Shown: positions 21,986-54,179 of the stretch, one piece after another
Numbering within the stretch: position 1 is the first letter of the stretch
How the letters are laid out: every line of letters begins with the position of its first letter
Notes under the pieces: model-generated
The model's database searches: none
The model's input: the letters and a program-made list of their open reading frames with translations, nothing else
What the model was told of the DNA's origin: nothing
Assembly: GCF_004339675.1 (NCBI RefSeq)
Contig: NZ_SLVM01000005.1
Coordinates: forward strand, 62,001 to 126,000
Length of the DNA: 64,000 nt
Source of the DNA: Rhodovulum steppense
GTDB lineage: Bacteria; Pseudomonadota; Alphaproteobacteria; Rhodobacterales; Rhodobacteraceae
Direction: 5' to 3'
Program-made: the position numbers and the translations under genes

Positions 21986-22551
21986 TCAGTCTCCGCCGAC
22001 TTCGAGCCGCTCAAGAAGGGCACGCAGGGCGCGCTCCGCGGCCTCAAGTTCACCCAGAACCTCCTCGGGGTCGGGCTCGTCGGGACACAACGTTGCGAGC
22101 GCCCGCAGATCGCCGGTGACAACATCGCCAGGGTCTCGAGCAGAAAGGCGACAAGCGGCGGCCCGCTGCGGGTGACCGAGTCCCCGGTGTCGGTGGCGTG
22201 GTTATGGCTGAAATAGACCATGCCCTCGTCGCGGATACCGACCACCTTGCCGAAGACCAAGGCCGCATTGACCGCGTTCAGCATCGCCTGCGTCATCTCA
22301 TAGGCCGCTTCGCTTTCGGCCCGAGCGGGAAACACCACTACCATCTGCCAGAGTTCGAGATCGCCATCGACCGAATCGAGCCGGTTGATGCGCAGCACCG
22401 GATCGCTGCCGACATCGCTGTCCGGAAACGGCACGGCGATGTGCAGTGCCTCGTCCGGTTCGTCGACCAGAACGGGTCGAAGCCCTACCCCGTTCAGCGC
22501 GGCCACGAAATCCCCGATGTCTGCCATCGTTCCCCGTTCCTGCGCCGTCAT
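21986..22551 (-). pseudogene. YbjN/type III chaperone-like protein, apparent frameshift
   Basis: The first 140 or so residues (MADIGDFVAALNGVGL..., start 22527, or 22551 if coupled to the previous gene by an ATGA overlap) look like a small secretion-chaperone/YbjN-type fold. At about 22131-22140 (..AFLLE) the open frame changes to low-quality sequence running to 21802. The next frame continues plausibly as DPGDVVTGDLRALATLCPDE, then an acidic amphipathic helix, to a TGA at 21986. A one-base deletion explains this. A sequencing error is possible. It is the last gene of the eCIS operon, so a chaperone for eCIS cargo is a reasonable guess. Confidence 0.6.
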
Positions 22552-24403
22552 CGCGCCTTGAGACTGGCAACGATCAGCTTGAGGATCGCCTGCCGCTTGT
22601 TGGTCACTCCCGCGTCGTTCCAGACCTGCTGCACGTCGCGCTGAATTCCCAGCGCCTTGAAGAACCATTTCTGTTCGGCATCCGGCGCGCGAAGGATCTC
22701 CAGCGCCGCGTGGCGATAGCGGAACGCCTTGTTCGCGGTGCTCTTGTCCTTGTTGAAGGTGCCGCCCATGCGCTTTCCGGTCGCAATCCGGCCCTTCGTC
22801 TTTTCCAGGGTTCGGCTGACGAACTCTTCGCCATCAAGCGCGGCAGCCGCGGATTTCTGAGATTGGTGAGCTTGCCCGCCGCCTTGTCGCGGCGATGCTG
22901 CTTGAACTTGCGTGTGCCGATCTGCAACAGCTTGGCAATGCTGGACGCCATGCCCAGCCCCGCGCCCATGCCGCTGACGGTCAGCGCGCCCGCGGTCATC
23001 GAGGTGGCGGCATGGATCATTTCGATAATCGCGCGCTGGATCTGCTTAGCGAACTTCTCCTTGGTGACGGTGAACGCCTCGAGCAGCGCCTCGCTGCCCG
23101 AAACAACCAGTTCGGCCGCCTTCTGCCTGGCTTTCCTGGCCGCTACCGCGACCCGGCCGAGCTTGATCGCCTGCTGCAGAAAGTCGAGAACGCCCTTGAT
23201 GAGGCCGATGACCGGGATAACGGGCACGCCATTCACCACGCCGCGTGCCATCTCGGTCGCGGCGCCCACCGACTCGGTGGCCACCTGCCCGCCCCCCGCG
23301 ATCTGGTGGTAGATCTTGATCACGCTGGACACCGTGTCGGCCACCTTGTTGGTGGCGCCAGCGAGGTCATGCACCGTGTCGAACCCGGCCTGGGCGTTCT
23401 CGCTGGCGGTGCGGGAATTGCCCTCGACCTTCTTCCAGCGCTTGACCCCGTCGCGGACCATGTCGACCAACGCTGTGACCGAGTCGACTGCCGAAACGAG
23501 GATGCCGACACTGTCGCCGACCAGCTTGAAATCGGTGCCGACATCGATACAGCGCTCTGCGTCGCGACCGAAGAAGGCCGATGCGGGAACATTCCCGCTT
23601 TCGCCCCCGCGCAGGGCGGTCATGGCGCCGCCCTCTGCCTTGCCCAGCGTGGCCACGAAACCTGGTACGCCAAGTGTCGCAAGACGCATCCGGGCACCGG
23701 CGCGCTGCCGCTTGGCCTTCTTGTCGGTCCGGCCCCTGAGCGACTCGAGCAGCGCGATCTCCCTGGCGATCTTCGCGCCCAGATCGCCAGCCATCCACAG
23801 CCCCGCGGCGCTGTCCGCCCCGCCGCTCAGCCGGTCCATCGCCGCGGCGTCGTCTGTGTGCAGCCCGCTCATCATGGCGGCCGCGTTGCGCTGGTCGTCG
23901 CGTGTGGCTGTCTCGGATTTCCAGTAATCCTCAAGCCCCTCGTTGCCCTTGCCGCCGGTGCCCTGCATGCCCAGCGCATTCAGCGCCTCGCCAGCAAGGC
24001 CAATTCCCTCCCCATAGGCCTCGGGCATGCCGAAGTTCGGTCCTTCTGGATCCCTCGGCTCGGTCACGTCGAGGAAAACGTCAATATCCGTATCGGCGGT
24101 GTCGAGATAGTCCCTGGCCCTGGCACGAAACCTGTCGCTCTGGCGGCGGCCATAACTGCTTTCGTGGTCAAGACTCTTGCGCGCGGTCACGAGCGAGGTT
24201 TCGAAACGCGGAAGATATTTCCCCAACGCCCTGGCGGCGCTGCGATGATTGGCAGTCCAGACGCGAACGCCCAGATGCCGCTCGGCCAGCGCGATCATGA
24301 CGCTGCAGGCGTCCCACAGGGCATCGACGGGATGATGATCCGGGTCGATGTCACGCACCATCTCGCGCAGGCGGCCGAGACCGTCCACCATCTGTTCCCT
24401 CAC
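22548..24403 (-). CDS. Large helical protein of the eCIS locus, frameshifted near the C-terminus
   Basis: I do not recognise a family. The intact part (residues 1-512) is mostly helical. It has a Gly/Ala-rich middle, two hydrophobic segments (about 388-410 and 466-492) and Lys/Arg-rich ends. At about 22855-22870, after RRDKAAGKLTN, the open frame turns to Arg-rich nonsense and stops at 22604. The next frame continues as KSAAAALDGEEFVSRTLEK and then MGGTFNKDKSTANKAF, to a TGA at 22548, which is clearly coding. The start is GTG in a GTGA overlap with the upstream stop. Length, hydrophobic segments and position downstream of the ATPase suggest cargo (effector) or a membrane factor. Either is inference. 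Confidence 0.6.
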
Positions 24404-25047
24404 ATCGAGGGGCGCTCGACCGCGAGGATCCGCTGCACCCGCCCCCGGACCCGCGTATAGACATCGTAAGTGAAGGTGGTGCGGGAGCCCCGGCTCTTGC
24501 CCTTGGATAGCGTGCGGTCGAGCTTCTCGATCTTCTTTCCGAGTTGGTCCTTCAGTTCCTCCACGGCCTTCGCGCGGCTGCTGTCGATCACCGCCGCCCC
24601 GTCCCTGGCCTTGTAGCCCTTGTCCCTGATCCAGTCTTCGATCGCGGTGCGCAGCGCCTCCGCGGCGGTCTTCTGGGTCTGCACATCCTTGTCAATGGTG
24701 CCATGATACTCCATCAGCGCCACATCTATCCGCAGCAGCGCATCCGACCGCTTGCGCCCTGCACGACTGCTGAGAGAATGCCACATCTCGGGCGTCATCA
24801 CCGCCTGCCGCTGGAAGGGCGCACCCCCTTGCGCATCTGCCGCCCTTTGCAGACGGGCCTGGACGGCAACGGCCGCGCTCTGCTGCGCATCCTGTGCCAG
24901 AATGGCGAGACCCCGCGGCACGTTGCTCGCAGCGGAGGTTCTGTAGAAATCCGCAAGGCGCGGATCGAGCGCAGCCCGGAACGGGTCAACGCGCGCCGCG
25001 TTCCGTCCGGCGGTAGGCCGCGCGACAGACGGCAAGGCCCGGGTCAT
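24400..25047 (-). CDS. Uncharacterised eCIS-locus protein, possible cargo
   Basis: This 215-residue protein matches no family I recognise. It begins with a Pro/Ala/Arg-rich, probably disordered segment (1-30), as is common in eCIS cargo leader regions. A Gln/Ala-rich helical stretch (50-80) follows, then a Lys/Glu-rich coiled-coil-like segment (about 150-185). AAGGAGAAC precedes the ATG. It is separated from the large envelope protein by 99 bases and overlaps the next gene by 4 bases. Its place after the structural genes suggests cargo or a cargo-loading factor, without direct evidence. Confidence 0.6.
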   Translation of the reverse strand: MTRALPSVARPTAGRNAARVDPFRAALDPRLADFYRTSAASNVPRGLAILAQDAQQSAAVAVQARLQRAADAQGGAPFQRQAVMTPEMWHSLSSRAGRKRSDALLRIDVALMEYHGTIDKDVQTQKTAAEALRTAIEDWIRDKGYKARDGAAVIDSSRAKAVEELKDQLGKKIEKLDRTLSKGKSRGSRTTFTYDVYTRVRGRVQRILAVERPSM

Positions 25048-25146
25048 CTGTTCTCCTTCCTATCGGACCATTATCCCGACCTTCCGGTTGCCGCGGACAC
25101 CCGTCCGGTCGCAGGCCGCCAGATGTCCGATCTCCCCGTCCCCGCG

Positions 25147-28100
25147 TCATGGCCTGGGCCCGTTCCGGGCACGTTGGATGACGTCGAAGACCAGGATCGC
25201 GCCCAGCAGGAACACCAGCATTCCCAGAAAGACCGGCGGCCAGACCGCCTTGTGGTCGCAAATGCTCAAGAGGACCAGCAGCGCCAGCAAGCCCGCCGTG
25301 CCGATCCCGACGACATGCCAGCGAAACGCGATCCGCTCGAAAAGACCGCTGTAATACGAGCGCCAGGTCAACAGCACGACCAGGGAGAAGACCGCCATCG
25401 CGACAAGCGTCAGATAGGCGCGGTTCGGACAGGCCCAGGTGCAGACCGCCTGCGCACGATTCTCGAAGACCCCCAGGCTCGATGGCAGGACACCCACGAC
25501 CCATTGCTCGGAGATGAAGCGAAAGAGTTCGGCGGTCTCGGGAGCGTCCGGATGAGGCACCGGCCAGAAGCCGATCCCTGCGAAATTGTCCTCGAAATAG
25601 ACCACGTCGTCGCGAAACTGTCCGAATTTCCCGGTCGCCGGGTCCGCCGCCTCGCCGTCGCGCAGACGCGGGAAGACGTTCTCGTGCCCGGCCGGCGGCA
25701 GCACGGGAATGATGCTGCGCAGTACCTCGAACCGCTCCGTGCCGCGGAACGCGCCATGATCCATCCGCGCCCGCAGGAGTTTCTTGGCATCGGATGTCGG
25801 CCGTTCAAGAAAGATCAGCACCTTGTCCACCGTCTTTTCGCCGTCGTCGCCCTCGATCAGGAGTTCCCTGAGATCGTCCATCAAGGGTTGGGCCCTGCAT
25901 TGGGTACAAGACGTGTCCAGAAGGGCGAGGTCGAAGGCGATGTTGACGGTTTGACCGCGTGCTTCCAGCAAGTCCTGCACCCGCGAGACCAACCGGATCA
26001 GGTTGCCCACATTCGGGTCGGTCGCCGGATTGCCGCGGTAATCCTCGAAGACCAGGATCACCCCGTCGGGTTGCACATCGTCGAAAAGCGTGGGCAGCGC
26101 GTCCCCTATCGCCTCCCAGGACGCATTCTCGAAACGGGAAAAGCCCCGCGCGGCAAAGACGATCTGGTTGGTGGCATAGGCAATCTCTGCCTCGCTCCAG
26201 TCCGTCCAGTCTCGCAGATCGAAGGCCAGATGCGCCCTGGCCCGATGGCGGTGCGCCGAGGTCACGAAATCCCGCTTCGCGCTTGTCCAGAAGCCGAGGT
26301 TGCGCAGAAGGAGGTTGCGTTCGTCGGCAGGCTGACCGGGGAACTCGAACGCGAATTCGAGCCCGTAGAAGGCTATGTCGCTGAAGATCCCGAAATCGAC
26401 CGGCACCGGTCGGGAGGCGTTCTCGGCCTCCCCTCCGTCCGCCGCTGCGTTCTGATCGCCTCCGGCGGCATCGGGCGCGACCGGGGCAAGCCAGAACGGG
26501 TAGAAGCCGAAGACGTGCTGGAAATCTCCGTATTCCCGTTTGGCGACGCAGCCGCAATCCCCGGCGATCGGCGCCGTAACGCGTGGCTTGTCGAGATCGG
26601 TCACCTGACGGAAGGCGAGTGCCGTTATCCGGCTGGTCAGTTCCGGTGAGAGCGGGCGGTCGTCCACCCTCTGGCCCGGCTGCCCTGGCACATTACGCAG
26701 CGCCGCTTCGAACAGGCGCCTCGTCGGGTATTCCACGCCGACCAGAGGCCGCATACGCTCTGCCAGGTTCGCCGCGCTGGGATCCTCAGCGTCGCTCGCG
26801 AACGGTCCGAGCGTTCGGAGCGCCTCCTCGAGTTCAGGCGTTAGCGTCCATGAATCGCGAATGGCCTCGGCGACCAGCGGCAGGCGGTTCTCCACCACCT
26901 TGCGTACCTCCGGCTCCACCAGCGGATTCAGCAGTGCCCGGACCCTGCCCCTTATCAATTCCTTGTTGGTCGCCTGCGCGATCAGTTCCTCGTTCAGCTT
27001 CTGCACGAAAGCCTCATTGGTGATCGTGTCGAAGACCGCACCAACGGTCGCGTCGGTCACCCCAATCAGCGGCGGCAGATCCAGCGGGTCGAACTGTTCC
27101 TCATCGACTCGCGGTTGGTCGAAGACGCCTTCGACCGGCTCGGCGGCCTCCGCGGCTGTGTCGGCGGCCAGCGCCACTTCCTGCTGAAGCACAGTTCGGA
27201 TCGGATCGGCAAGCGCCGTCTCCAGCCCGGCAAGAAGATCCTCCCGCCGCTTGGCCTGGATCCCCAGCAGGGGCACGACCAGCGGCTCGAGTTCAGCGCG
27301 TTCGGGATCGAGCTTGAACTGCGCCACTGCATCCGCGTCCAGCGCAAAGCGGCGGCCAAGCCGGTTGGTCCCGAAGACGACCGCGCGCGCCTGTCCAAGT
27401 GTACAATCGTCGATCACCCCTTCCAGCGGCACGCGCAGCGCCCTCCACAGGTCTTCGACGCTTGCAAAGCTCTGCTCACGGAACGGATCGAGGATCTTGT
27501 CGTCTGTCCTGCCCGTGAGCACGTCGAGTTGCACCTGGCCGAAGCTGAAATAAGTCAGGGTCCGATCGGTATCCTCGACCAAGCAGTCGGCGAGTGGGGG
27601 GCTGGCCGGAATCTGGGGTATGACCAGGGGTGTCACGCCTGCGGGTTCCGGGCGCTGCGCGCGATAGACGTCGATGAGGTGGAGAACCGAATCGCGGGTT
27701 CCGATCAGACCCAGCAGACGCTGACGCGGCGCCTCGGCAAGCCAGGTGGCAAAGCGGGGATCCGCCAGGTCGGCCAGCGCACCCGGCCTGAGAGCCTCGA
27801 TCTCGCCCAGCGATTCGAGTCCGGCGGCGAACGCGGACAGGTCGCCGAGGACCGGCAGCGCGAGACACAGAGCCGACAGCGGCGCCGCACCGTTGGAACG
27901 CTGCAGCAACCCGGCTGCCGTGGCGGCTGCCGTACCCAGTTCGACCCTGTCGGCAGACCCGCAATCGGGCGCGACGCCCACCGGCCCCAGCGCCGCCACG
28001 CTCATCGGAGGCGTCGCGGCCAGACGCAGGGCGAGCGGCGCCGCCGTCTCGCCCTCGCGCGACACCAGCGTCGCGGCGAAATCCGGCGAGAGGAGGAGCG

Positions 28101-28449
28101 CAGGCCAGTCCTCCGAAAGCTCGGACAGACGGGCGTATTCGAGGGTCAGTTCCAACGTGCCGATGACATCGGGCACCGACCCCGCCCGTGGTACCATCTG
28201 GCAAAGCCGCTGTAATGCATTGCGGGTGTAGCTTCCGATCCTGTCATCCTGCAGTAGTTCATTCCGGTCCTGCAGGGCAGCGCCCACCCCCTTCTGAATC
28301 GAACGCACATCATATCCGCGGGGTTCGGCCGACAATTGCAGAAGGTCGGAACAGGCCGCCGCAGCCCGGCCCGCCGACAGCAGCGACAGCATCACGGCCA
28401 GGGCAAGGGCACAAAGGGTCGGCAGGAACCGGAGACTGGACTTTGTCAT
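25147..28449 (-). CDS. Envelope-anchored GH18-like protein of the eCIS locus
   Basis: This 1100-residue protein has a composite layout. It starts with a signal peptide (1-31, ending AGRAAAA). A peptidoglycan-binding-like motif follows at 46-84 (IQKGVGAAL..DDRIGSYTRNAL). A long helical region spans 90-630. A GH18 (chitinase-like) TIM-barrel-like domain spans about 645-985, with FGFYPFWLAP, DGVILVFE (795-802; compare GH18 DGxDxDxE, here keeping only the last Glu) and GIGFWPVPH. Three membrane helices end the protein (1011-1030, 1045-1064, 1070-1090). This predicts a large periplasmic protein tethered to the inner membrane. Its ATG overlaps the ATPase stop, so it belongs to the eCIS operon. Roles could include particle anchoring, wall remodelling or release. 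Catalysis is doubtful given the incomplete motif. Confidence 0.75.
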   Translation of the reverse strand: MTKSSLRFLPTLCALALAVMLSLLSAGRAAAACSDLLQLSAEPRGYDVRSIQKGVGAALQDRNELLQDDRIGSYTRNALQRLCQMVPRAGSVPDVIGTLELTLEYARLSELSEDWPALLLSPDFAATLVSREGETAAPLALRLAATPPMSVAALGPVGVAPDCGSADRVELGTAAATAAGLLQRSNGAAPLSALCLALPVLGDLSAFAAGLESLGEIEALRPGALADLADPRFATWLAEAPRQRLLGLIGTRDSVLHLIDVYRAQRPEPAGVTPLVIPQIPASPPLADCLVEDTDRTLTYFSFGQVQLDVLTGRTDDKILDPFREQSFASVEDLWRALRVPLEGVIDDCTLGQARAVVFGTNRLGRRFALDADAVAQFKLDPERAELEPLVVPLLGIQAKRREDLLAGLETALADPIRTVLQQEVALAADTAAEAAEPVEGVFDQPRVDEEQFDPLDLPPLIGVTDATVGAVFDTITNEAFVQKLNEELIAQATNKELIRGRVRALLNPLVEPEVRKVVENRLPLVAEAIRDSWTLTPELEEALRTLGPFASDAEDPSAANLAERMRPLVGVEYPTRRLFEAALRNVPGQPGQRVDDRPLSPELTSRITALAFRQVTDLDKPRVTAPIAGDCGCVAKREYGDFQHVFGFYPFWLAPVAPDAAGGDQNAAADGGEAENASRPVPVDFGIFSDIAFYGLEFAFEFPGQPADERNLLLRNLGFWTSAKRDFVTSAHRHRARAHLAFDLRDWTDWSEAEIAYATNQIVFAARGFSRFENASWEAIGDALPTLFDDVQPDGVILVFEDYRGNPATDPNVGNLIRLVSRVQDLLEARGQTVNIAFDLALLDTSCTQCRAQPLMDDLRELLIEGDDGEKTVDKVLIFLERPTSDAKKLLRARMDHGAFRGTERFEVLRSIIPVLPPAGHENVFPRLRDGEAADPATGKFGQFRDDVVYFEDNFAGIGFWPVPHPDAPETAELFRFISEQWVVGVLPSSLGVFENRAQAVCTWACPNRAYLTLVAMAVFSLVVLLTWRSYYSGLFERIAFRWHVVGIGTAGLLALLVLLSICDHKAVWPPVFLGMLVFLLGAILVFDVIQRARNGPRP

Positions 28450-29804
28450 GAGGTCCGTCCTTCCTTGCGCATCTCGCTGGCAATCGCCTGACGCAGGTCG
28501 TCGACGCCGATCGAAGCCGCGCCACGCCGCATCGCCGTGATCGCCGCATGGCGCGCGACATTGATGATCGCGCCGCCCACCAGATCGTGACTGCGGGCCA
28601 GTTCGGTCATGTCGACATCCTCCGCCAGCGGCACCTGCGCCATAAGCCCGCGCCAGATCCGCTCACGCTGGGCTGCATCCGGCCGGGTGAAGCCGATGGC
28701 CATCTGGAACCTGCGGAAGAAGGCGTCATCGATATTGCTACGCAGGTTCGTGGCCAGGATCACCAGGCTGCGACATTCCTCGATCCGCTGCAGCAGATAG
28801 GACACCTCCTGATTGGCATAGCGGTCATGGGCGTTCGTCGTCGCGGTGCGCGCCCCGAACAGAGCGTCCGCCTCGTCGAAGAACAGGATCCATTCCCGCT
28901 CGGCGGCCATGTCGAAGACCAGCCCGAGATTCTTTTCGGTCTCGCCGATATATTTCGACACAATCATCGACAGGTCGATGCGGTAGACATCAAGCCCCGT
29001 GCGCTTTCCCAGAAGCGAGGCGGTGAGCGTCTTGCCGGTGCCGGGCGGGCCGTAGAACAGCGCCTTGAACCCATGGCCGAGATGGCGCGCGAGACCCCAA
29101 TCGCCGAGGATGCGCTCGCGATTCTCTAGCCAGGCCACGATGTGTCCCAGGCTGTTCTGGATGTCGGGTGGCAGCACGAGATCATTCCATCCCAGACCCG
29201 TCGTCAGCCTCTGCGCTGGAAAGTTCGGCGCGAAATCCGGTTTCGGCGCGCCTCCCTCGCACAGCGCCACGACCCGATGCACCGGAATCGTCAGAACCGC
29301 GCCATAGGTCGGCCCGGCGGTGCCGACGGCGCCCAGCATGACCCCCGCCCGGCGGCGTAGGGGATGATCGGGATCGAAGACCGCCATGGCCGTGATCCGC
29401 GCCGTGGTTTCGGCCCCGGCCAGGAGGAACAGCGCGGTCTCGGCGGTGGGCTGGAATGCGCCTGTTTCGACATGGATCCCTCCGAACTGCGAGAAGATCC
29501 GGTCGATCGCCTTGTTTCGCACGAAGAACGGGTCGAGGATCGCCGAATTCACATGAGCCGCGACGGCCAGCGCCAGCACCAGCCGGGCCTCGGTCGTGAG
29601 TGACCCCGCTTCGATCAGGGCGCCGAGCGCCGAGCCAGTGATTGGCGCCGGTGCGGGCGGCAAGCGCAGAGGCGTCCCCTGCCCTGCGAAGAAGTGCTTG
29701 AGCCGCGCCTCGATGACCTCGCCGAGCCAGGCGAGTTCCGCCGCGATCGCGCGAGCGTGGGGCGAGGTCTGCGGCTCGGCGAGGTCGAGTTGCGGAACGG
29801 CCAT
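28446..29804 (-). CDS. eCIS AAA+ ATPase (Afp15/Pvc15-like)
   Basis: This is a 452-residue AAA+ ATPase conserved in eCIS loci, thought to help load cargo or assemble the particle. Residues 1-210 form an N-terminal domain typical of this family. The AAA+ core follows: Walker A GPPGTGKT (252-259), Walker B ILFFDEAD (306-313), sensor-1/arginine region ATNLRSNIDDAFFRRF (351-366) and a C-terminal lid. The ATG at 29804 lies 2 bases after the tape-measure stop. The 3' end overlaps the envelope-protein gene by 4 bases. Confidence 0.92.
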   Translation of the reverse strand: MAVPQLDLAEPQTSPHARAIAAELAWLGEVIEARLKHFFAGQGTPLRLPPAPAPITGSALGALIEAGSLTTEARLVLALAVAAHVNSAILDPFFVRNKAIDRIFSQFGGIHVETGAFQPTAETALFLLAGAETTARITAMAVFDPDHPLRRRAGVMLGAVGTAGPTYGAVLTIPVHRVVALCEGGAPKPDFAPNFPAQRLTTGLGWNDLVLPPDIQNSLGHIVAWLENRERILGDWGLARHLGHGFKALFYGPPGTGKTLTASLLGKRTGLDVYRIDLSMIVSKYIGETEKNLGLVFDMAAEREWILFFDEADALFGARTATTNAHDRYANQEVSYLLQRIEECRSLVILATNLRSNIDDAFFRRFQMAIGFTRPDAAQRERIWRGLMAQVPLAEDVDMTELARSHDLVGGAIINVARHAAITAMRRGAASIGVDDLRQAIASEMRKEGRTS

Positions 29805-29806
29805 GA

Positions 29807-43776: not shown

Positions 43777-43779
43777 GCG

Positions 43780-44463: not shown

Positions 44464-44466
44464 CGC

Positions 44467-45098: not shown

Positions 45099-45100
45099 GT

Positions 45101-45541
45101 CTAGGCGGGTTTCAACGTGACGCCCTCATGCGCGATCTCGATCGTCTCGACGGCGACCTCGTTGCCCTCGGCCTTGAGATCGGTGCCGGCGACCTTTACC
45201 GGAAAGGCCCGCTCGACCGTCCAGACGAAGACCGCGTTATGCTCCTCGTTCAACAGCGAGATTGTCAGGCCCTTGCGTTCGGCCGCACTGCCGACATTGG
45301 TCGTGAACCAGTCGAACAGCGCATTGTCGCCGCGGAACATTCCCTTCTTCATGGTGATGTTCGAGAACTTCTTGAGACCGGGCATCTTCTGCACCGAGAA
45401 GCTCTGGTCGTTGCCGGCGCGGTATTCGATGGCGGTGGTTTCCATGTCGAGGCCGGAAACCTCCTGAAAGGCCAGTTCGCTGCCCTCCCACTCGACCTTG
45501 AAATGGAATTTCGGAAGCGGCCAGGGTGTCTGGTCTGCCAT
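45101..45541 (-). CDS. eCIS major tube protein (Afp1-like, phage gp19 family)
   Basis: This is a 146-residue protein expected to form the bulk of the inner tube. Key motifs are FHFKVEWEGSELAFQEVSGL (12-31), the FSVQKMPGLKKFSNITMKKG strand pair, and GNEVAVETIEIAHEGV at the end. GGGAGACAAGAC precedes the ATG. It lies 24 bases after the sheath gene. Confidence 0.93.
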   Translation of the reverse strand: MADQTPWPLPKFHFKVEWEGSELAFQEVSGLDMETTAIEYRAGNDQSFSVQKMPGLKKFSNITMKKGMFRGDNALFDWFTTNVGSAAERKGLTISLLNEEHNAVFVWTVERAFPVKVAGTDLKAEGNEVAVETIEIAHEGVTLKPA

Positions 45542-45565
45542 GTCTTGTCTCCCTTTCTACCCGGC

Positions 45566-47731
45566 TCAGGATTTCTGCATCTGCTGCTGGAATGTGATCT
45601 CGATGAACTCGGCAGGCCGGGTCACGGCGACCAGGACAGTGATCCGCAGGATGCCCTCCAGAATGTCGACGGGCGTCATGGTCTCGCCGAGGCCGACATG
45701 CACGCTGAACGCATCGTCGGGAACCGCGCCGGCCAGCCCGCCCTGCTTCCACACGCTGGTCAGGAAGTTCTCGATCAGCGAGCGCATGGTGACCCAGGTG
45801 GCCGAGGTGTTCGGCTCGAAGACATAGGCCTTGGCGGCCAGCCGGATCGATTCCTCGATCATGATCATGGTCCGGCGCACGTTGATATAGCGCCAGTCGA
45901 GGCTGTTGCCGTCCAGCGTGCGCGCGCCCCAGACCAGCGTGCCCTCGCCCACGAAGGGTCGGATCGCGTTGATCGACTTGCCGGTTGTCGAGACGTTCAG
46001 GTTCTCCTGCTCGGCATGGTCGATATTGACCATGGGCGCGACCACGGAATTCATCGACACATTGGCCGGGGCCTTCCAGACGCCGCGGGTATTGTCGACC
46101 ATCGTGTAGATGCCCGCCAGCGCGGCGGCTGGCGGCATCGCGTTCATGTAGGACGCGATCTCGTTCATCACCTCGGTGTAAAGCGGCACGACCGCCCTCA
46201 GGGTCTTGTCGATGGTCGCGGGAGACGGTCCGGCAAGCCCCGTGCCGGTGGCCTCCCCGGCCATTAGCACGCGCAACTCCTGGGGTGCGGTCGGCGTGCC
46301 TCCGACCTCGATGGTGTAGCTTGCCAGCGCTGCGGGTCCGGCAAAGGCGGTTTCCGGCGTGAACTTGACCTTGCCGTTCTTCGCCACCGACCAGATGCCC
46401 GCGCCGGAAACGGTACGGGTCTTGCCGCTTTCGTCATCGGCGTCCAGCAGCTTGACGCTGGCCGCATCGCCGTCCGGATGATCGGAGGAAACGTCGATCT
46501 CCACCGCGGTCTGCGCCGCGATCGCGGTCGCGTCCAGAAGCCCGCCCACCACCTCGACACCGAGGGTCAGCGCATCGGTCGCGATCTCGTTCTCGTCGGT
46601 CACGACAAGGTCGAACCGTCCCGAACGGCTCTCGCCATCATGGACGAAAGCGATCTTTCCGGCTTCAAGATCGGCCTGGGTAAAGCTTGTGGCGTCCTTT
46701 CCGTCGAGTTGCAGCTTGCCGGCCATGGCGCCGGTATCCGACTCGACCGTATAGGTCAGCCCCTCCGCCGCGCTGTCGTCATCCTTGGCCGAGATATCTG
46801 CCGTGGTCAGCGCGACGGTGCCGCCCTTGGGCACCGAGATCGTGAAATCCCCGCTGACCACGGGGGCACTGATCCGCCGGATCTCGTCGGCCAGTTCGGC
46901 CACCCGGCCTACGCTGCGCTTCATAAGGCCGATCAGCGCCTGTCGGCTTGGAGGATCTATGTTCTCATAGGTGAAGTCGCGCGACTGGAAGATCGACGTA
47001 TTGACCCAGGGGTAGTAGGCCGCGCCGAAATCAAGGTCGTTGATGCCGATGTCGTTGCGGAAGGTGGCCACCGGATTGCCCAGAGGATCCTGCTGCGGCA
47101 GATGCCCGCCCGAGATGTCGAGGATCGCGAAGCGGTTCTTCATGGCGGTGCCACAATGCATCAGCATCGCCTGCTGCACCTTGACCGCGTTCTGTCGCAC
47201 CAGCCGTGTGGTCTCGGGGATCACGACCATGGTGGGCTCGGGCTCCTTCTTGAGCCGGTCAATGGCGGCCATCATCCTCTCGGCGTCGATATCCTCGCCG
47301 TAGCCCCCGATCGAGGTGACGTAACATGCCCCGCCGCCATTCTGGAAGAACAGCCGCATCGCCCCGTAAAGCGCATAGGCTGGGTTGATCTGGATCAGCT
47401 CGTACTTTTCCTCGCCGCGCGGGCCGCGGGTGATGAAGCTGGCCCGCGGCAGCGCGGGCGGCTTGTCCGCGCCCTCGGCCGAAAGCGGCGAGATGCCGTC
47501 GAAAGCCTTCCACGGCTCGATCTTGAAAAGCGGCTGCGGCGGGCCGCCGAAATAGCTGTGGAACTCGGACATCGACGAGATGCGCCATGGCGTCATCTGC
47601 AGCGACACGTTGCCGTTGCGCGCCATTTCCGTATAGCCAATGAAGGCCGGTACGGCTGTGGCCACCTGCACGACGGAATTGGGGAAGGCGTTCTTCTCGA
47701 CGATGTAGACGCCGGGCGTTTTCATGACCAT
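45566..47731 (-). CDS. eCIS tail sheath protein with inserted beta-repeat domains
   Basis: This 721-residue contractile sheath starts MVMKTPGVYIVEKNAFPNSV and ends RITVLVAVTRPAEFIEITFQ, the signatures of the family. Compared with Afp2/3/4 sheaths, about 195 residues (293-487) are inserted between the N-terminal lobe and the conserved C-terminal subdomain (residues 505-721). The insertion has two beta-rich modules: 295-395 resembling a CSPG/cadherin-like repeat (SFTQADLEAGKIAFVHDGES) and 405-488 resembling a CshA-type repeat (WSVAKNGKVKFTPETAF). These would face the outside of the particle. GGAGAG precedes the ATG. Only one sheath gene is present. Confidence 0.92.
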   Translation of the reverse strand: MVMKTPGVYIVEKNAFPNSVVQVATAVPAFIGYTEMARNGNVSLQMTPWRISSMSEFHSYFGGPPQPLFKIEPWKAFDGISPLSAEGADKPPALPRASFITRGPRGEEKYELIQINPAYALYGAMRLFFQNGGGACYVTSIGGYGEDIDAERMMAAIDRLKKEPEPTMVVIPETTRLVRQNAVKVQQAMLMHCGTAMKNRFAILDISGGHLPQQDPLGNPVATFRNDIGINDLDFGAAYYPWVNTSIFQSRDFTYENIDPPSRQALIGLMKRSVGRVAELADEIRRISAPVVSGDFTISVPKGGTVALTTADISAKDDDSAAEGLTYTVESDTGAMAGKLQLDGKDATSFTQADLEAGKIAFVHDGESRSGRFDLVVTDENEIATDALTLGVEVVGGLLDATAIAAQTAVEIDVSSDHPDGDAASVKLLDADDESGKTRTVSGAGIWSVAKNGKVKFTPETAFAGPAALASYTIEVGGTPTAPQELRVLMAGEATGTGLAGPSPATIDKTLRAVVPLYTEVMNEIASYMNAMPPAAALAGIYTMVDNTRGVWKAPANVSMNSVVAPMVNIDHAEQENLNVSTTGKSINAIRPFVGEGTLVWGARTLDGNSLDWRYINVRRTMIMIEESIRLAAKAYVFEPNTSATWVTMRSLIENFLTSVWKQGGLAGAVPDDAFSVHVGLGETMTPVDILEGILRITVLVAVTRPAEFIEITFQQQMQKS

Positions 47732-47744
47732 TGGCGGCTCTCCT

Positions 47745-48479
47745 CTACCATACGGTGACGAAGATGTCGGATTGCAGGCAGGCAGCGCCGCCCGGTTCGT
47801 CCGGATTTCTGAAACCTGTCCCCGCTGCGGGAAGCACTGGTATGACGGTCTCCGGGCCGAAGGGGCCGGGTCTTTGGAGCGCAAACCTCTCGGGCGGCCG
47901 AGCGCGCGCGGCAATCGGCACAGCCGAGCGCAGGACATGCGCGGCGGTGCCGTCGGGAAGCGTGCGCGGCCCGAGAGCGTCGAATTCCACCTTGCCCGTG
48001 GGATCGAAGACGCTGAACCCCGACCCGGACTCGCCCCCCGTCACGACATAAGCCCACAGGGCATCCACCGCATCGAAACGCAGGGTCACCTCGCGCCCGC
48101 CCTCCTGGGGAAGTGCAATCTCGGCCCGCGCCAGCCGCTTCGAAACCATCTGGGAGATCTTGCCCGCCCGAAACAGGTCAACATAGGCTACGTCGTCGAT
48201 GCCTGCCGGGATCTCAAGCAGCGACACCTCGTTCCAGTCGGCCCCTCGGGTCACGGCAAACAACTGGGGCGCCTCGGCCACCAGGTCGAGCGTCACCGAG
48301 GCGGGGCGATCATCGGCCCGATCGGCCAGAACAACAGCCTCCACACCTCGCCACCGCAACAGCAGGCCCGCCCGGTCGAACCCCGCCGGATCGGCAGGCA
48401 TCACGGCGACGGGAACCCGATCCACACCGTAATAGGTATGCGCCAGCTTCAGAGACAGGATCGGTGCATAGGTCGTCAC
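47745..48479 (-). CDS. Conserved-position eCIS protein of unknown function
   Basis: This is a 244-residue protein with no signal peptide and no recognised domain. Beta-rich sequence (YAPILSLKLAHTYYGVDR at the start, then GLLLRWRGVEAVVLADR) suggests a structural role, and its place between the Pvc16-like gene and the sheath gene is consistent with that. The start is GTG at 48479 overlapping the upstream TGA by four bases (GTGA). Function cannot be assigned. Confidence 0.6.
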   Translation of the reverse strand: MTTYAPILSLKLAHTYYGVDRVPVAVMPADPAGFDRAGLLLRWRGVEAVVLADRADDRPASVTLDLVAEAPQLFAVTRGADWNEVSLLEIPAGIDDVAYVDLFRAGKISQMVSKRLARAEIALPQEGGREVTLRFDAVDALWAYVVTGGESGSGFSVFDPTGKVEFDALGPRTLPDGTAAHVLRSAVPIAARARPPERFALQRPGPFGPETVIPVLPAAGTGFRNPDEPGGAACLQSDIFVTVW

Positions 48480-49054
48480 GCCACATCCTCCCGCGGTTCG
48501 ACCCGGCTGCCCGGCCGGGTGACCAGCGGCGCCACACCGCCCACCGCGGCTGCGTCTATGATCACCGAACGCATCTTGAACATCACCGAGGGCACATAAC
48601 GGCCACCGAGATTGCCCCAAAGCTGACCGAGTTCCTCGATCCGAAGATTCGATATCTCGATGCTGAGCTGTTCCAGACCCGGAGGCATGTCGGGCGTGGT
48701 CTGGGGATTCATGACCGGGCAGGTCTGGAAGAACATCATCGCCGCGGACATCAGCTTGAGCCCTTCGAGATAGGTTTCGGGATCGTGGCCCGAGGCCAGC
48801 ATGAAATAAATGTCGAGATGCAGCGGGTGCGCGCGCGTCACTTGCCCGCCTTCCGGCTTCAACGGTCGGCGGGGGGTCGCGTCATGGGCGATGTTCACGA
48901 GAAAGAGAACCAACCGGTTGCGTGCCTCCGCAGCCGGCTTGCCCTCGGCGTCGGATAGCGGCGACAGGACAACCAGATCGTCGGACACCCGGTATCGGGC
49001 GGCCAGATGCGCGTTCAACCGAGCGGTGACAAGGCCGAGCGCGCCGTCGATCAT
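48476..49054 (-). CDS. Pvc16/Afp16-like tail terminator (DUF4255)
   Basis: This 192-residue protein matches the DUF4255/Pvc16 N-terminal family that caps the tube and sheath. It has MIDGALGLVTARLNAHLAAR at the start, ARNRLVLFLVNIAHDAT, HLDIYFMLASGHDPETYLEG and LSIEISNLRIEELGQLWGNL. ATG at 49054; a longer frame to 49171 is less likely. It is the first structural gene of the eCIS block after a 147-base gap that may hold its promoter and includes a small hairpin (49141-49156). Confidence 0.9.
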   Translation of the reverse strand: MIDGALGLVTARLNAHLAARYRVSDDLVVLSPLSDAEGKPAAEARNRLVLFLVNIAHDATPRRPLKPEGGQVTRAHPLHLDIYFMLASGHDPETYLEGLKLMSAAMMFFQTCPVMNPQTTPDMPPGLEQLSIEISNLRIEELGQLWGNLGGRYVPSVMFKMRSVIIDAAAVGGVAPLVTRPGSRVEPREDVA

Positions 49055-49201
49055 GGGACACGCGGACAGGGAGGCGCCTGCGACCGCCAGATCGGAGGTT
49101 CGTTCCTGCGGTGGTACACCTGTCCCTCCCTTAAACCGTTCTGGTTTTGCAACCAGAGTAAGAGAAGCCATTAGAAAAGCAAGAATTCGTTAGGCTCGCC
49201 C

Positions 49202-49816
49202 TCACGCCCCCGCCGCGCGCCTCCGGAACAACCACAGCATCAGACCGGAGATGGCAAGGCCGACGAGGATGAACCAGGCCGAGACGTAGAGATAGGTCGC
49301 CAGCATGAAGACCGGGCTGTCGTCGCGCGCGAGGATCAGGTTCGCGCGCCCGACGATCTCGTCGACGCCGATCACCGAGGCGGTGGCGGAGGCCATGATG
49401 ATGATGAGGAAATACTGGATCCAGGCGATGACGAAGGTCTCTCCGGCGCCCGCCGTGCCGGTCTCTCGCTGCTGGAGATAGCCCAGCGTCTGGTCCGAGG
49501 CGAAACCGACCACCGGCAAGGTCAGTGCCAGCGCCGCCTTGAGCCAAACCGGCACTGCGACGATGCTGTCGCCGATCTCGATCTCGCTCGGCAGCATGAA
49601 GGCCATGTAGTAGAGAAGCACGAAGCTCGGCACATTGCGGCAGACATTGGTCAGCACATGTTCGGCACGCAGAGTCGCCCGGAACCGCCGGAAACGCAGC
49701 AGGCCCAGCGCGGCCCCGACCAACGTGCCCAGTCCCATCGACACCGCCGAGATCAGCAGGTTCCTCGCGAACCCACCGGCGAGAAAGGGTGTGCGCTCGA
49801 TAAGGATCTCGATCAT
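49202..49816 (-). CDS. Amino-acid-type ABC permease, second subunit
   Basis: This is a 204-residue membrane permease of the polar-amino-acid (HisM/GlnP) type with about five helices, including FARNLLISAVSMGLGTLVG and NVCRNVPSFVLLYYMAF, the family's EAA-loop region. It overlaps the SBP-permease gene by 4 bases. No ATP-binding subunit is adjacent, which is unusual for this transporter class. Confidence 0.75.
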   Translation of the reverse strand: MIEILIERTPFLAGGFARNLLISAVSMGLGTLVGAALGLLRFRRFRATLRAEHVLTNVCRNVPSFVLLYYMAFMLPSEIEIGDSIVAVPVWLKAALALTLPVVGFASDQTLGYLQQRETGTAGAGETFVIAWIQYFLIIIMASATASVIGVDEIVGRANLILARDDSPVFMLATYLYVSAWFILVGLAISGLMLWLFRRRAAGA

Positions 49817-51477
49817 CGCCGCGCCTCCCCGCCCGGGGCCAGTCGGTTCCTTGCCAGGCGGAACAGCCAGATCACGCACAGCACGAAGACGAAGTAGAAG
49901 ACAAGCAACCCGTTCATCAACGTGCCCTTGTCACCGCCCTCGGCGACCAGCAGGTTCACGGTCGAGACCAGTTCCGTCAGCGCGATGGCACTGGCCATGC
50001 CGGCGGCCTTGATGATATTCACGCAGGTCGCGACCAGTCCGTCGAAGCACCGCCGGATCGCCTCCGGCAGCAGTGCAAGGAGTTCGGCGTCGGGCGCTCG
50101 CAGGCGCTCGTGCTCCAGCGCGTGCGACAGCAGGACCGCGTTGGTGGCGCCGGCATAGGAGGACAGGATGATACCAGCGGTGACGAAGCTGCCGGGTGTC
50201 ACGATCCCGGCATTGGCCATCAAACCGCCAAGGGCGAAGAAGACAATGTAAAGCTGGAGGATCGGCGGCGTCATGCGTGCCAGCACGATGAAACCGCGCA
50301 GCGGAAGCCGCACGACCTGCCCGATCGGACCCATCCGGCGCGCGCGCGCGTCGATCAGGCCAAAGCCGATCCCAACCGCGAGCCCCCCCAGGATCGCCAC
50401 AGAACCAAGCGCGAGCGTCAGGCCCAGGCCGCGGACCAGCCGGGCGCGGTCATAGGCATCGTAGAGCACCCGGAGGTCAATGCCCGCCCGCTCGCGCAGC
50501 GCCGCGGCCCATTCGGGCAGATCGACGGGCGCGCCAGTCGCAACGGGTTCCATCTCGAAGAGGCAATCTGCCGGAAAGCGGCCCGTGTGCGGATCCCGGG
50601 TGCAGAACGGCATCCCGTTCTCGACCCGTGACCACGTCTTGTGCAGATCACGCAGGAATTCGGTCTCGCCCACCCACCATTTGCGCTGCAGTTCCAGGAT
50701 ACGCCCAGTCGCATGCCATTCGCCCACCATGTCCGCCACGAAGCGTCCCCATTGGCCGTCGCCCTCGCCACTGGCAACCGCGACGGCCCAGGGCACGTCG
50801 AGGATGGTGGGGACGATCACGCCGAAACCAGGCTCGTGCTCGGTATGTACGAGTTGCGCCAGCGCCGTGTCGTCAAAGGCCCAGCCGACGCAGCGGCCGT
50901 ACTTCAACGCCAGGCGCGCCTCGCGGTTGCCGGGGAAATACTGGCCCTTTAGCCCGAAATCGCGCTCCAGCGTCCGGTTGAAATAGGCCCCCTGGGTCAG
51001 GCAGACCGGCGCATCCCTCAACGCCTCCCAGCCCGAGAGGCCAAGATCGGTGCGACCATAGACCACGACCCCGCTGGAATAGTAGTTCGGTTGGATCAGG
51101 TCGGCCTGGTGCCGCCGCACCTCGGTATCGCCCATGGTCGCGATGATCAGGTCGACCGAGCCATCGTTCACGCGCCCGATCCGGTTCTGCGCGCTGACGA
51201 CTTCGAGTTGAAGCCCGACGCCCAACCGGTCGGCAATGTCGCGTGCCAGATCGGGCTCGATCCCGACGATGGCATCGGAATCCGGATCGGGATTCACCAT
51301 TCCCCACGGCGGGTAATCGGCCTTTACCCCCACGATCAATGTGCCACGCTTCAGGATATGGGCCAGTCGGCCATCCGGATTTTCCGGCGCCACCGCACGG
51401 AGCGCATCAAGCGGCTGGGCTGCGGCGAATCCGGCCCAAGCGATCACGAGCAGCAGGAGCAGCACGAACCGGCTCAT
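49813..51477 (-). CDS. Fused substrate-binding protein and ABC permease
   Basis: This 554-residue protein fuses two functions. Residues 1-20 are a signal peptide. Residues 40-290 are a periplasmic amino-acid-binding (SBP family 3) domain (LKRGTLIVGVKADYPPWGMV, GIEPDLARDIADRLG). Residues 340-554 are an amino-acid ABC permease domain with membrane helices (LVRGLGLTLALGSVAILGG). The module may sense or import a polar amino acid. With the second permease it forms a membrane pair, but no ATPase lies nearby. It starts inside the methyltransferase 3' end. Confidence 0.78.
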   Translation of the reverse strand: MSRFVLLLLLVIAWAGFAAAQPLDALRAVAPENPDGRLAHILKRGTLIVGVKADYPPWGMVNPDPDSDAIVGIEPDLARDIADRLGVGLQLEVVSAQNRIGRVNDGSVDLIIATMGDTEVRRHQADLIQPNYYSSGVVVYGRTDLGLSGWEALRDAPVCLTQGAYFNRTLERDFGLKGQYFPGNREARLALKYGRCVGWAFDDTALAQLVHTEHEPGFGVIVPTILDVPWAVAVASGEGDGQWGRFVADMVGEWHATGRILELQRKWWVGETEFLRDLHKTWSRVENGMPFCTRDPHTGRFPADCLFEMEPVATGAPVDLPEWAAALRERAGIDLRVLYDAYDRARLVRGLGLTLALGSVAILGGLAVGIGFGLIDARARRMGPIGQVVRLPLRGFIVLARMTPPILQLYIVFFALGGLMANAGIVTPGSFVTAGIILSSYAGATNAVLLSHALEHERLRAPDAELLALLPEAIRRCFDGLVATCVNIIKAAGMASAIALTELVSTVNLLVAEGGDKGTLMNGLLVFYFVFVLCVIWLFRLARNRLAPGGEARR

Positions 51478-52250
51478 GGCGCTGCCACCGCGAGGATTCC
51501 GTAGCCCAGCCGGGCCGGACAGACCGGCGTGAGAAACCGCTCGACCCCGCGCAGGACCGGATGGTGCAGAAGCCAGCTCTCGGGCAGCACGCTCTCGGGG
51601 CGCATCTCGCATAGCGTGAACCCGGCCCGCCCCAGTTCGTCGGCCAACCCAGCCGGGTCGTAGAGTTGGTAGGGCAGAATCACGCTGGTTCCGCCCAGAA
51701 CCCGCCTGTAATGGATCAGTCCACGGGCTGCGATCCCGGCGCGGGCCTGCTCGCGTCGGAAACGGCGCAGGCGGTTGGGCACAGAAACGATCAGGCGCCC
51801 GCTCCCGGGGCGCAGCAGCACGCGCATCTGCATCAGCGCCCGCTGCCGTGCCGCCGCCTCCTCGATATGGCCAAGCACGCCGAAGAGGCACAGGATCACA
51901 TCGGCCGGGCCGAACTCGGCCATATGACGATCAAGATCGGCAGGATCGGGTCCAAGAATGGCGAGATCGTCCCAGCCGAACGCAGCAGCTTTCCGGCGCA
52001 ACAGCGAAATCGCGGCCGGGCTGATGTCATAGCCTGCCGCCGTACCGACCCGGTCGCGCAGAGCCAGCAGGTAACGCCCGCTGCCGCAGCCATAGTCGAT
52101 CACATGTCCAGAGGGCGGCAAATGGTCCATGACCAGGCGCTGCGTAGCGCGGTTCGGCCCAGGATAGCGCCGGTCATAGCAGCCGGAGTCGTAATAGAGC
52201 TCGTAGGATCGGGTTACCGTGTCGGTGGGGGGAAGGCGCGACGCGTCCAT
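51474..52250 (-). CDS. SAM-dependent methyltransferase (class I)
   Basis: This is a 258-residue Rossmann-like methyltransferase. Motif I VIDYGCGSGRYLLAL lies near residue 50, the acidic SAM-ribose residue lies in AGYDISPAAI, and motif post-I is PADVILCLFGVLGHI. The acceptor is unknown. The ATG at 52250 overlaps the stop of the channel-like gene (TGATG), so the two are coupled. Its presence inside a receptor/transport module is curious. Confidence 0.78.
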   Translation of the reverse strand: MDASRLPPTDTVTRSYELYYDSGCYDRRYPGPNRATQRLVMDHLPPSGHVIDYGCGSGRYLLALRDRVGTAAGYDISPAAISLLRRKAAAFGWDDLAILGPDPADLDRHMAEFGPADVILCLFGVLGHIEEAAARQRALMQMRVLLRPGSGRLIVSVPNRLRRFRREQARAGIAARGLIHYRRVLGGTSVILPYQLYDPAGLADELGRAGFTLCEMRPESVLPESWLLHHPVLRGVERFLTPVCPARLGYGILAVAAP

Positions 52251-53461
52251 CAGTTGGGCGCCACGGCACCAGGTCCAAGGTAGGCCTCGATCCGCCTGCG
52301 CCAACCCGGATCGCGCATGTCCTCGATCAGCGCGCGGTCGATCGCAGCGCGCAGCTCGGGGCGGTCACGCGCGATGGCCCAGCCATAGGGTTCGTTGAGG
52401 TAGACGCCGGACTGCACCTCGACGCGGCCCCTGTACCGGTCGAGCCGGGAGAGATAGCTGAGCGCGATCCAGTCGCCCAGCACAGCCTCGACCCGGCCCT
52501 CGTCCAGTGCCCTGACCGCCTGCGGCCAGCCCGGATAGAGCAAGCAGCCCGTGTCGGGGGTAGCGTCTTCCTCGGGAACGCAGACGGCCTGCGCCTGCAA
52601 CAGCCCCTCGGCGGCATATTGGCGGACCAGGAACTGCTGCGCGGTCGAGCCCTCGAGCGTAGCGATCCGCATTCCGGGCAGGTTTTCCGCCGACACGGTC
52701 GAACTCGCGCCGATCGAACCCACGAAGGCCGAGGTCAGCACCCCGAAAATCGTCGCCGACAGCACCGTGCCGACCACCGCCATGAATATCTCCAAAAGTC
52801 GGCCGAGCAACGTCTTGAAGCGATCGCCCAGCCCCTTGAGACCGGTCGTGCTGACGACCGCCTCGAGCAGCGTCGTCAGCCAGCCCTGATCCTCGGCACC
52901 CGCGCCGTCGCCTCCCCGCCCTTCATGGCGCAACGCCAAGCGCAGCAACGCCGCGAGGAGCAGATTGGCGGCCAGGAAGATCAACAGCGCCTTGACGACT
53001 CCGGGCTGTGTCACCGTCTGATAGATCACCCGCGTTGCGGTTTCGAAATCTATGGCGCTGGTGCTCGACACCGCAAGCGTCAGGCCCGATTGCAGGTATT
53101 GCTGCGAGAAGTCGTAGCGCTGCATCCGCGGCCCGGTGATCGTCAGCGGCGAGATCACCACGTCGACCAAGCCGTCCTCCAGCGCCGCTTCCTGGTCGGC
53201 AATGCTGCGACAAAGCACGATCTCGCTGCTCGACATCGCGCCTTCGGCGATCAGTTCGTGCTCGACCGACGTCCAGATGTCAATGGCAAAGCCCTCGGCA
53301 AGGCCAGTGGGCGACATTGCCGAAAAGGGTGGCGCGTCGCGGATGCCGACTACAACATCGACGTCGCGGATGGGCAGATCGCAGGCCGACGCGGATGCTG
53401 CTACGAACATGGCTAGGAGCAGGCCGCCAAACGACAGGAGCGTCGAACATGGATGAAACAA
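52250..53461 (-). CDS. Glutamate-receptor-channel-like protein (SBP domain split by a pore module)
   Basis: This is a 403-residue protein in the layout of prokaryotic ionotropic glutamate receptors. It has a signal peptide (1-26), ligand-binding lobe 1 (33-150; VVVGIRDAPPFSAM), a membrane helix (156-175), a pore-like loop (193-213) with STTGLKGLGD in place of the potassium filter TVGYG, a second helix (222-246), and binding lobe 2 (262-395; MRIATLEGSTAQQF). It would act as a ligand-gated channel in the inner membrane with the binding domain in the periplasm. The start is TTG at 53461 after AGGAG. A TTG at 53509 is possible. Confidence 0.7.
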   Translation of the reverse strand: MFHPCSTLLSFGGLLLAMFVAASASACDLPIRDVDVVVGIRDAPPFSAMSPTGLAEGFAIDIWTSVEHELIAEGAMSSSEIVLCRSIADQEAALEDGLVDVVISPLTITGPRMQRYDFSQQYLQSGLTLAVSSTSAIDFETATRVIYQTVTQPGVVKALLIFLAANLLLAALLRLALRHEGRGGDGAGAEDQGWLTTLLEAVVSTTGLKGLGDRFKTLLGRLLEIFMAVVGTVLSATIFGVLTSAFVGSIGASSTVSAENLPGMRIATLEGSTAQQFLVRQYAAEGLLQAQAVCVPEEDATPDTGCLLYPGWPQAVRALDEGRVEAVLGDWIALSYLSRLDRYRGRVEVQSGVYLNEPYGWAIARDRPELRAAIDRALIEDMRDPGWRRRIEAYLGPGAVAPN

Positions 53462-53570
53462 GGGCCGTGCTCCTGCGTGAGGGGCGGTGAGGGAACACGA
53501 AACCTGCAACCGGAATACAGCCCCGGATGAAACAATTCAACTTAGACAAAATCAAGCCCGACAGCGTCAC

Positions 53571-54179
53571 TCAGTCCCGCTGCAAGCCTTCCTGAATCGC
53601 CCGCGCGCCCATCGTGTCAGCCTCCCGCTCCAACGCGGCGTCGTCATTGACGGGCTGCCCGGCGACCTCGCACGTTGCTGCGACCCGACCTTCGGCCTGC
53701 TGCACGACATGCCAGGCCTCATGCGGCAGGTGCCGTTCCTGGCCGGGGGCGACGTGAATGTCGCTGCCCTGTGCGAAGGCATGGGCCTGGACCGCACCCG
53801 GCCGATCGGAATTGTAATGCACGCGCACCCCGCTCATGTCCCGACCCGAAAGGTTCTCGATCCCGCTGCGCAATTGCGTCGGCAGTCCGGATGCGGCGAC
53901 CGAACGGCCCTGCAGGGGTTCCTCCTCCTCGCCCACGCGTTGCATCGCCTCTCCGGCGGCATCCGCGCGCCGCTTCATCTGAAGCTCTTCTTCCTCTTCG
54001 ATCCCCTGTCGCTGAATCGTATCGGCCATCGCCTGAAGCTGTGCGAGGGCGCGGGCCGCGGGGCTTCGGTCGGCCTGATGCTGAAGCGCATCGACGGCAT
54101 CCGCCTCGACGTGCCCCCTGAAACGCCTTGGTGCAGGCCTTTGCATGACCGCGCGTTCAGATGCGAAGATGGGCGGCAT
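53571..54179 (-). CDS. DUF4157 'eCIS core' protein with HExxH motif
   Basis: This is a 202-residue protein whose C-terminal part (about 100-195) matches the DUF4157 domain, a marker found in or near many eCIS loci. It has SGVRVHYNSDRP, AQGSDIHVAPGQERHLPHEA, and the metalloprotease-like HEAWHVVQQ. The N-terminal 95 residues are Arg/Gln/Glu-rich and likely disordered (IQRQGIEEEEELQMKRR). AGGAG is spaced correctly before the ATG at 54179. The protein may be a cargo or a cargo-linked protease. It heads the accessory region and is about 110 bases before the channel-like gene. Confidence 0.85.
   Translation of the reverse strand: MPPIFASERAVMQRPAPRRFRGHVEADAVDALQHQADRSPAARALAQLQAMADTIQRQGIEEEEELQMKRRADAAGEAMQRVGEEEEPLQGRSVAASGLPTQLRSGIENLSGRDMSGVRVHYNSDRPGAVQAHAFAQGSDIHVAPGQERHLPHEAWHVVQQAEGRVAATCEVAGQPVNDDAALEREADTMGARAIQEGLQRD

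Follow-up and report, generated by a model that had tools for sequence, protein, structure and literature searches.

The gene cluster described here, from Rhodovulum steppense, encodes a contractile injection system (CIS), a phage-tail-like machine, together with a large putative anchor protein and a set of receptor-like proteins. It lies within a 64,000-nucleotide stretch of contig NZ_SLVM01000005.1 (the window), in a 3.66-Mb genome of 70 contigs, between genes for an isoleucyl-type tRNA synthetase (55179-58241, minus strand) and ribosomal protein S9 (20741-21652, plus strand). Gene starts were set by reading-frame analysis, and the window proteins, apart from those of short open reading frames, were scanned against Pfam (curated cut-offs) and PHROGs. 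As a preliminary description of this DNA had stated, every core CIS gene of the locus lies on one strand. This is the minus strand, to which all further coordinates refer. Most of the core proteins exceed the Pfam cut-offs for CIS or extracellular CIS (eCIS) families. The first gene encodes an eCIS_core (DUF4157-type) protein (53571-54179; E = 3e-11), with a possible start at 54179, which makes the right end of the locus exact. Beyond four receptor-module genes considered below lie those for a Pvc16-like cap (48476-49171; Pvc16_N, 2.5e-29), a protein that we call hyp7 (47745-48479), a 721-residue sheath (45566-47731; Phage_sheath_1C, 8.5e-10, with Phage_sheath_1 below cut-off) carrying a cadherin/Ig-like insert (Cadherin_3, 2.7e-17), two tube proteins (45101-45541 and 44640-45098; Phage_T4_gp19, 1.2e-45 and 5.6e-38), a DUF5908-like small protein (44467-44640), a CIS_tube-family adaptor (43780-44463; 3.7e-42), a VgrG-like spike (42010-43776; Phage_base_V, 4.4e-21), a PAAR tip (41706-42005; 8.1e-25), and a gp25 baseplate wedge protein (41265-41702; 1.9e-26). 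They are followed by the genes for a putative lipoprotein (40348-41265), for wedge protein 1 (36332-40252), for a protein that we call hyp17 (35475-36335), for wedge protein 2 (33163-35478), for the tape measure protein (29807-33166; CIS_TMP, 3.7e-48), for an AAA+ ATPase (28446-29843; AAA, 6.8e-27), and for the anchor candidate (25147-28449). The part list of the preliminary description is upheld for most core families; its DUF5908 protein falls under the cut-off (E = 0.0065), with its position kept in relatives, the adaptor has no LysM match in Pfam, and the two wedge proteins have no counterpart in Pfam or PHROGs and are assigned from their place in the locus and their conservation in relatives. 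The lipoprotein listed there among the interleaved genes is borne out by a Cys28 that is invariant in all 16 aligned sequences.

Judged by these CIS-family profiles, the cluster fits by ancestry the complete eCIS proposed earlier. A prophage tail, a tailocin, or a canonical type VI secretion system (T6SS) would have tail parts in common with such a machine, and an IcmF/TssM-family gene does exist in the genome, but the CIS-specific families score above cut-off, no head, capsid, portal, or terminase gene was found among the proteins scanned, and the IcmF/TssM matches lie on another contig (C4), so that these readings are extremely improbable and were rejected. Also in agreement with the earlier account, neither the TssJLM membrane complex of a T6SS nor any lysis gene was recognized in the cluster among the scanned proteins. 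The two IcmF/TssM-family matches on contig C4 (L147 and L148) suggest that a T6SS may coexist with the CIS. An NCBIfam scan of the locus proteins returned no CIS names, and a PDB search with the ATPase gave general AAA proteins only among the 60 of 251 matches listed.

The protein encoded directly after the ATPase combines a wall-binding-like N-terminus, a domain resembling a dead GH18 enzyme, and about three membrane helices at the C-terminus, and its family profile, synteny, and predicted structure make it the anchor candidate of the locus. We compared gene content with the loci of the other 21 CIS-positive genomes of the Rhodobacterales (about 40 kb around CIS_TMP, or 20 kb in G235 and 36 kb in G239), and the protein directly follows the ATPase in 16 of the 21. 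A contig search with an alignment of the anchor family yielded 100 relatives, from which 80 loci were kept; their hosts are Rhodobacterales, Nitrosomonas, Herbaspirillum, Pandoraea, Collimonas, other Beta- and Gammaproteobacteria, and Nitrospirota. In profile searches, the gene immediately upstream of the anchor is that of a CIS ATPase in 75 of the 80 loci, and in all 75 the anchor starts between -4 and +8 bp from the ATPase stop, the start codon being the one chosen as nearest to that stop. In four loci with no ATPase in view (L077, L080, L096, and L136), the sequence begins within the anchor match or some 100 bases before it. The other locus, L135 from a metagenome-assembled Nitrosomonas genome, contains an orphan anchor-like gene; neither an ATPase gene nor any other CIS gene covered by the profiles was found in the 10 kb flanking it on each side.

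Hydropathy analysis of the 75 anchors revealed an N-terminal hydrophobic segment in 60 and at least two C-terminal hydrophobic segments in 74, the exception, L088, being a cut sequence. Consistent with this pattern, an AlphaFold2 model of the anchor built from 50 sequences (mean predicted local distance difference test score, 89.6; predicted template modeling score, 0.68) has long C-terminal helices at residues 1010-1031, 1046-1064, and 1070-1096. PG_binding_1 matches the N-terminus of 7 of 50 diverse anchors (E <= 1; best, 1e-4), and the weak PDB profile matches to this region (E = 0.08 to 0.85) include four chains of peptidoglycan enzymes. When 22 CIS-negative genomes (the first listed plus G280 and G215, rather than a random draw) were searched with the anchor profile, only two weak matches emerged (4.5e-6 and 6.8e-6), over profile positions 36-115; the two proteins concerned, from G006 and G019, themselves match PG_binding_1 (8e-25 and 3e-30).

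The preliminary description had called this protein a GH18-like membrane protein, a label that is plausible for the fold and fails for the enzyme. In residues 645-961 of the model, eight strands and intervening helices follow one another in the manner of a TIM barrel, with an additional short strand; this likeness is judged from the secondary structure of the model alone. Strand 1 carries a YGFYPFW motif and strand 4 a DG motif, positions at which GH18 enzymes, we assume, have their own motifs, and a GH18-like fold for the middle domain is therefore plausible. The catalytic motif of GH18 enzymes is DxxDxDxE. At the corresponding positions of the 50 anchors the second Asp is present in none, the third Asp in one, and the Glu in 12 (22 have Asp there); an active GH18 enzyme was rejected because these catalytic positions are lost. 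No GH18 model appears among the 25 of 54 Pfam families listed for the 50 anchors. The 50-row anchor profile matches PDB entry 9R9A chain B, an 864-residue homologue over most of its length (profile positions 6-624 and 743-891; E = 1.8e-73), whereas phmmer with the window anchor alone found no match in the PDB; the same profile also matches Cas7-11 (4e-4), probably by chance. 9R9A chain B is listed as an uncharacterized protein, and others may already be studying the family. No paper on 9R9A or describing the anchor protein was found in literature whose coverage excludes bioRxiv and most subscription papers, and the available parts of PMC8213781, PMC12210884, PMC12923769, and PMC10598620 say nothing of a protein of this kind.

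Of the 390 genomes of the order, our own included, 22 have CIS_TMP; they all belong to one family and represent 11 of 139 genera. The anchor is found in 17 of these 22; the other five (G122, G141, G311, G336, and G368) have no anchor-profile match genome-wide, and the CIS of G311 lies at a contig end. Among 398 genomes of the phylum, nine more are CIS positive (one of them, G490, below the tape measure cut-off), and four of the nine have the anchor. In a tree of 82 ATPases, a branch with support of 100/97 separates the 76 rows with an anchor from the 6 without, the latter being few and long branched, which the tree tool warns of. Two proteins accompany the anchor. hyp17 is present alongside it in G502, G740, and G537, and none was found in G122, G141, G311, and G368, four loci with both wedge genes in view but no anchor; hyp7 was seen with the anchor in the comparison of relatives' loci. 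hyp17, a candidate Cis13-like baseplate or short-fibre protein, has no Pfam or PHROGs match; its profile matches All3316 (Cis13 of Anabaena) weakly over residues 1-47 (E = 0.0046) and Bdellovibrio bd2133 over part of the remainder (whole-sequence E = 1.7e-6; best single stretch weak). It is the only fibre-like protein of the locus, and it is strongly conserved, matching the window protein at 38 to 79% across 24 relatives. These comparisons support a CIS subtype marked by anchor, hyp17, and hyp7, in accord with the distinct subtype suggested in the preliminary description, in which the interleaved genes prove the most informative part. Many Rhodobacterales members of the subtype add the lipoprotein, the sheath insert, and the receptor module. 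In G502 and G740 the core is contiguous from cap to wedge 2, with no receptor module or lipoprotein in between and with sheaths of 510 and 527 residues. The window sheath aligns over 739 to 852 columns in 14 of the 15 anchor loci of the order with a sheath in view, the exception being G369 (526 residues). The cadherin/Ig-like insert, possibly a surface decoration, is not expected in the 510- to 527-residue sheaths of other Proteobacteria.

Between the eCIS_core and cap genes lies a four-gene module encoding a GluR0-like receptor channel (52250-53509, start codon uncertain), an S-adenosylmethionine methyltransferase (51474-52250; Methyltransf_23, 2.2e-14), a fusion of substrate-binding protein and permease (49813-51477; SBP_bac_3, 7.7e-20), and a permease-like protein (49202-49816; TIGR01726, 2.1e-10, just under cut-off). 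In the channel, the SBP_bac_3 match (1.4e-16) is split by the membrane part, and its profile matches the bacterial glutamate receptor (GluR) Slr1257, the ligand domains of N-methyl-D-aspartate (NMDA) receptors, and many amino-acid-binding proteins, which bears out the channel-like receptor reported earlier. All four genes stand in the same order before the cap gene in our genome and in G034, G075, G218, G221, G235, G239, G294, and G347; the module runs across the contig ends in G239, and G034 and G294 have their eCIS_core gene in inverted orientation. The channel (E <= 1e-20) was found in 13 of the 390 genomes, all CIS positive (13/22 versus 0/368; Fisher p = 8e-19). At E < 1e-60 the permease is present in 11 genomes, all again CIS positive; the next match is in G215 at 1e-42, followed by 10 weaker ones (11/22 versus 1/368 with G215 counted; p = 1e-14). 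The genomes in these tests are related to each other rather than independent trials. That CIS and receptor genes are chance neighbours is unlikely. In a search of 49 of the 80 genomes with an anchor, 12 of 23 Rhodobacterales and none of 26 others have the permease (E < 1e-90), with two more matches near 1e-23.

The EAA loop of ATP-binding cassette (ABC) importers docks on the ATPase. In the module permease, a 20-residue gap replaces this loop in all 11 genomes and in the G215 remnant, as judged against two permeases of our own genome and weaker relatives in G170 and G108, all of which keep an EAA-type loop. The fusion has an 11-residue gap and no EAA in all 11 genomes, by comparison with the two own-genome controls only. 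Since the loop is lost from both permeases, the two are not expected to function as a normal importer, and no ABC ATPase was found among the window locus proteins scanned (a search confined to the window); an ordinary amino-acid importer was rejected on these two grounds. The ligand sites are, by comparison, intact: R121 and D202 of the fusion and R128 and D346 of the channel are invariant in 11 of 11 sequences, and we take these to be the ligand-contacting Arg and Asp of this family of binding proteins. The channel retains two binding-protein lobes around a pore with these residues kept, and in all 11 sequences its pore loop has the pattern T-x-[GA]-L-[KR]-G. TVGYG, the K+ filter motif, is absent from it. 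The module membrane proteins belong by profile to the same fold family as GluR0 (Slr1257) and the type-3 ABC amino-acid importers, with ligand-contact residues kept, but differ from them in lacking TVGYG in the pore and EAA in both permeases. Retention of the ligand sites together with loss of the signatures of transport suggests that these proteins are receptors.

A nutrient sensor or transporter might instead merely travel with the locus and play no part in the machine, and we allow this a substantial minority chance. Several anchor CIS loci do without the module, and a 6.2-kb contig (C47; L049) of the CIS_TMP-negative genome G215 has the genes for methyltransferase and permease along with a broken fusion gene, a remnant that may be a relic or an assembly edge. 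Restriction of the channel to CIS-positive genomes and the absence of the coupling loop from all 11 genomes argue the other way, as does the module's persistence within the CIS loci of G263 and G369 in spite of its rearrangement there.

We consider it rather probable that the producing cell retains this eCIS-family machine, docked at its own envelope. ATPase-anchor adjacency, the distribution of the anchor, and the split in the ATPase tree speak for docking, and the restricted distribution of the channel, together with the EAA loss and kept ligand residues, for a receptor role; we infer docking with good genetic support and the trigger with weaker. The anchor would reach the peptidoglycan with its far end and fix the baseplate at the inner membrane, with hyp17 as a possible connector. 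The receptors would detect a solute in the periplasm, such as an amino acid or something akin to one, and their ligand state would pass to the anchor or baseplate and license docking or firing. The machine might then fire outward, like a T6SS, or on the producer itself, as the available parts of the literature report for the Streptomyces CIS and suggest for the thylakoid CIS (tCIS) of Anabaena.

Several observations weigh against this reading. The locus contains an eCIS_core gene, as eCIS loci do; the window's own anchor has no PG_binding_1 match in Pfam; and the resemblance of hyp17 to Cis13 is weak, hyp17 having no predicted membrane helix of its own. Two anchor-positive congeners, G312 and G354, have no module gene but that of the channel, and four anchor-positive genomes of genus g4 (G040, G086, G350, and G370) have no module gene at all, so that the module is not needed by the machine. 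The eCIS_core gene also favours a released eCIS, for which the wall-binding membrane protein would breach the envelope or aid release instead of docking the machine; such a protein could serve release as well, and no other lysis gene was recognized among the proteins scanned. The anchor has no hydrolase signature and has lost the GH18 catalytic positions, and the conservation of hyp17 is unlike that of a receptor-binding fibre. A conserved wall-and-membrane protein argues against a free extracellular particle, and we regard release outside the cell as unlikely.

The available parts of the papers cited here describe related arrangements. In Streptomyces, the CIS cluster encodes a membrane protein, CisA, that is required for firing. 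Its extracytoplasmic domain is similar to solute-binding proteins, and a sensor role is discussed for it (PMC12237407); that domain parallels the receptors here. CisA is described as a 468-residue single-pass protein, unlike the 1,100-residue multi-helix anchor and separate receptor proteins of the present locus, and a hot-spring CIS is reported without close cisA homologues (PMC12998442). The tCIS, also an eCIS-type machine held at a membrane, is held by Cis13 (PMC8894136), which the hyp17 N-terminus weakly resembles; Cis13 itself contains a membrane helix, whereas none is apparent by eye in hyp17, and the present locus encodes an anchor protein of its own. The haloarchaeal T6SS-like CIS likewise has a co-conserved putative membrane anchor, Hbor_38620 (PMC11566945), but with six membrane helices and a cytoplasmic domain, and no wall-binding or barrel domain is described for it in the text available. 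A catalogue of fibres states that loci lacking a fibre candidate were excluded from it and that such loci might act inside cells (PMC12923769).

The locus itself probably moves within the family, to judge from sequence comparisons: the window ATPase groups with Sedimentitalea and Roseobacter (14-row set, 98/91) and not with two other Rhodovulum species, and a third congener, G280, has no CIS_TMP. Plasmid carriage is hinted at only by two CIS-bearing contigs of about 85 kb, one in G239 (85,347 bp; C6, L023 and L053), which is circular because a methyltransferase gene spans its ends, and one in G221 (85,355 bp; C8, L020 and L054); neither anchor nor permease matches PLSDB plasmids. Downstream of the anchor are two possible cargo genes, one (24400-25047) with no relative at 1e-4 in the 21 loci and another (22604-24403) with no relative in those loci and with a change of coding frame near 22.85 kb, seen in third-position GC content, so that it is broken or misassembled. 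At the 3' end of the locus, a small YbjN-like protein (21802-22551; YbjN, 0.0012, below cut-off) is a possible chaperone. YbjN shares its fold with secretion chaperones, so this protein might serve cargo. After the Herbaspirillum anchor in L099 (11830-18292), three consecutive proteins begin, by eye, with similar RPxAxAQRxL-like stretches, possibly a cargo series.

For the retention, docking, and triggering of eCIS-type machines, CisA and the tCIS are the worked examples found. We put forward, as a tentative proposal that is somewhat doubtful as a whole, that a wall-binding inner-membrane protein, inherited together with the machine, holds it at the envelope in Proteobacteria and Nitrospirota, and that in Rhodobacterales a transport-dead importer and a pore-altered glutamate-receptor channel have been added as a trigger through which an outside amino acid would gate firing. 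Taken jointly with such a trigger, and equally tentatively, this mode of retaining an eCIS-derived machine in the envelope of Gram-negative cells may be widespread and so far undescribed. The anchor candidate occurs in culturable bacteria (Roseobacter, Rhodovulum, Yoonia, Nitrosomonas, and Herbaspirillum), which, with the receptor set, makes docking and triggering directly testable. If the proposal is true, some loci now counted as extracellular systems would be cell-bound.

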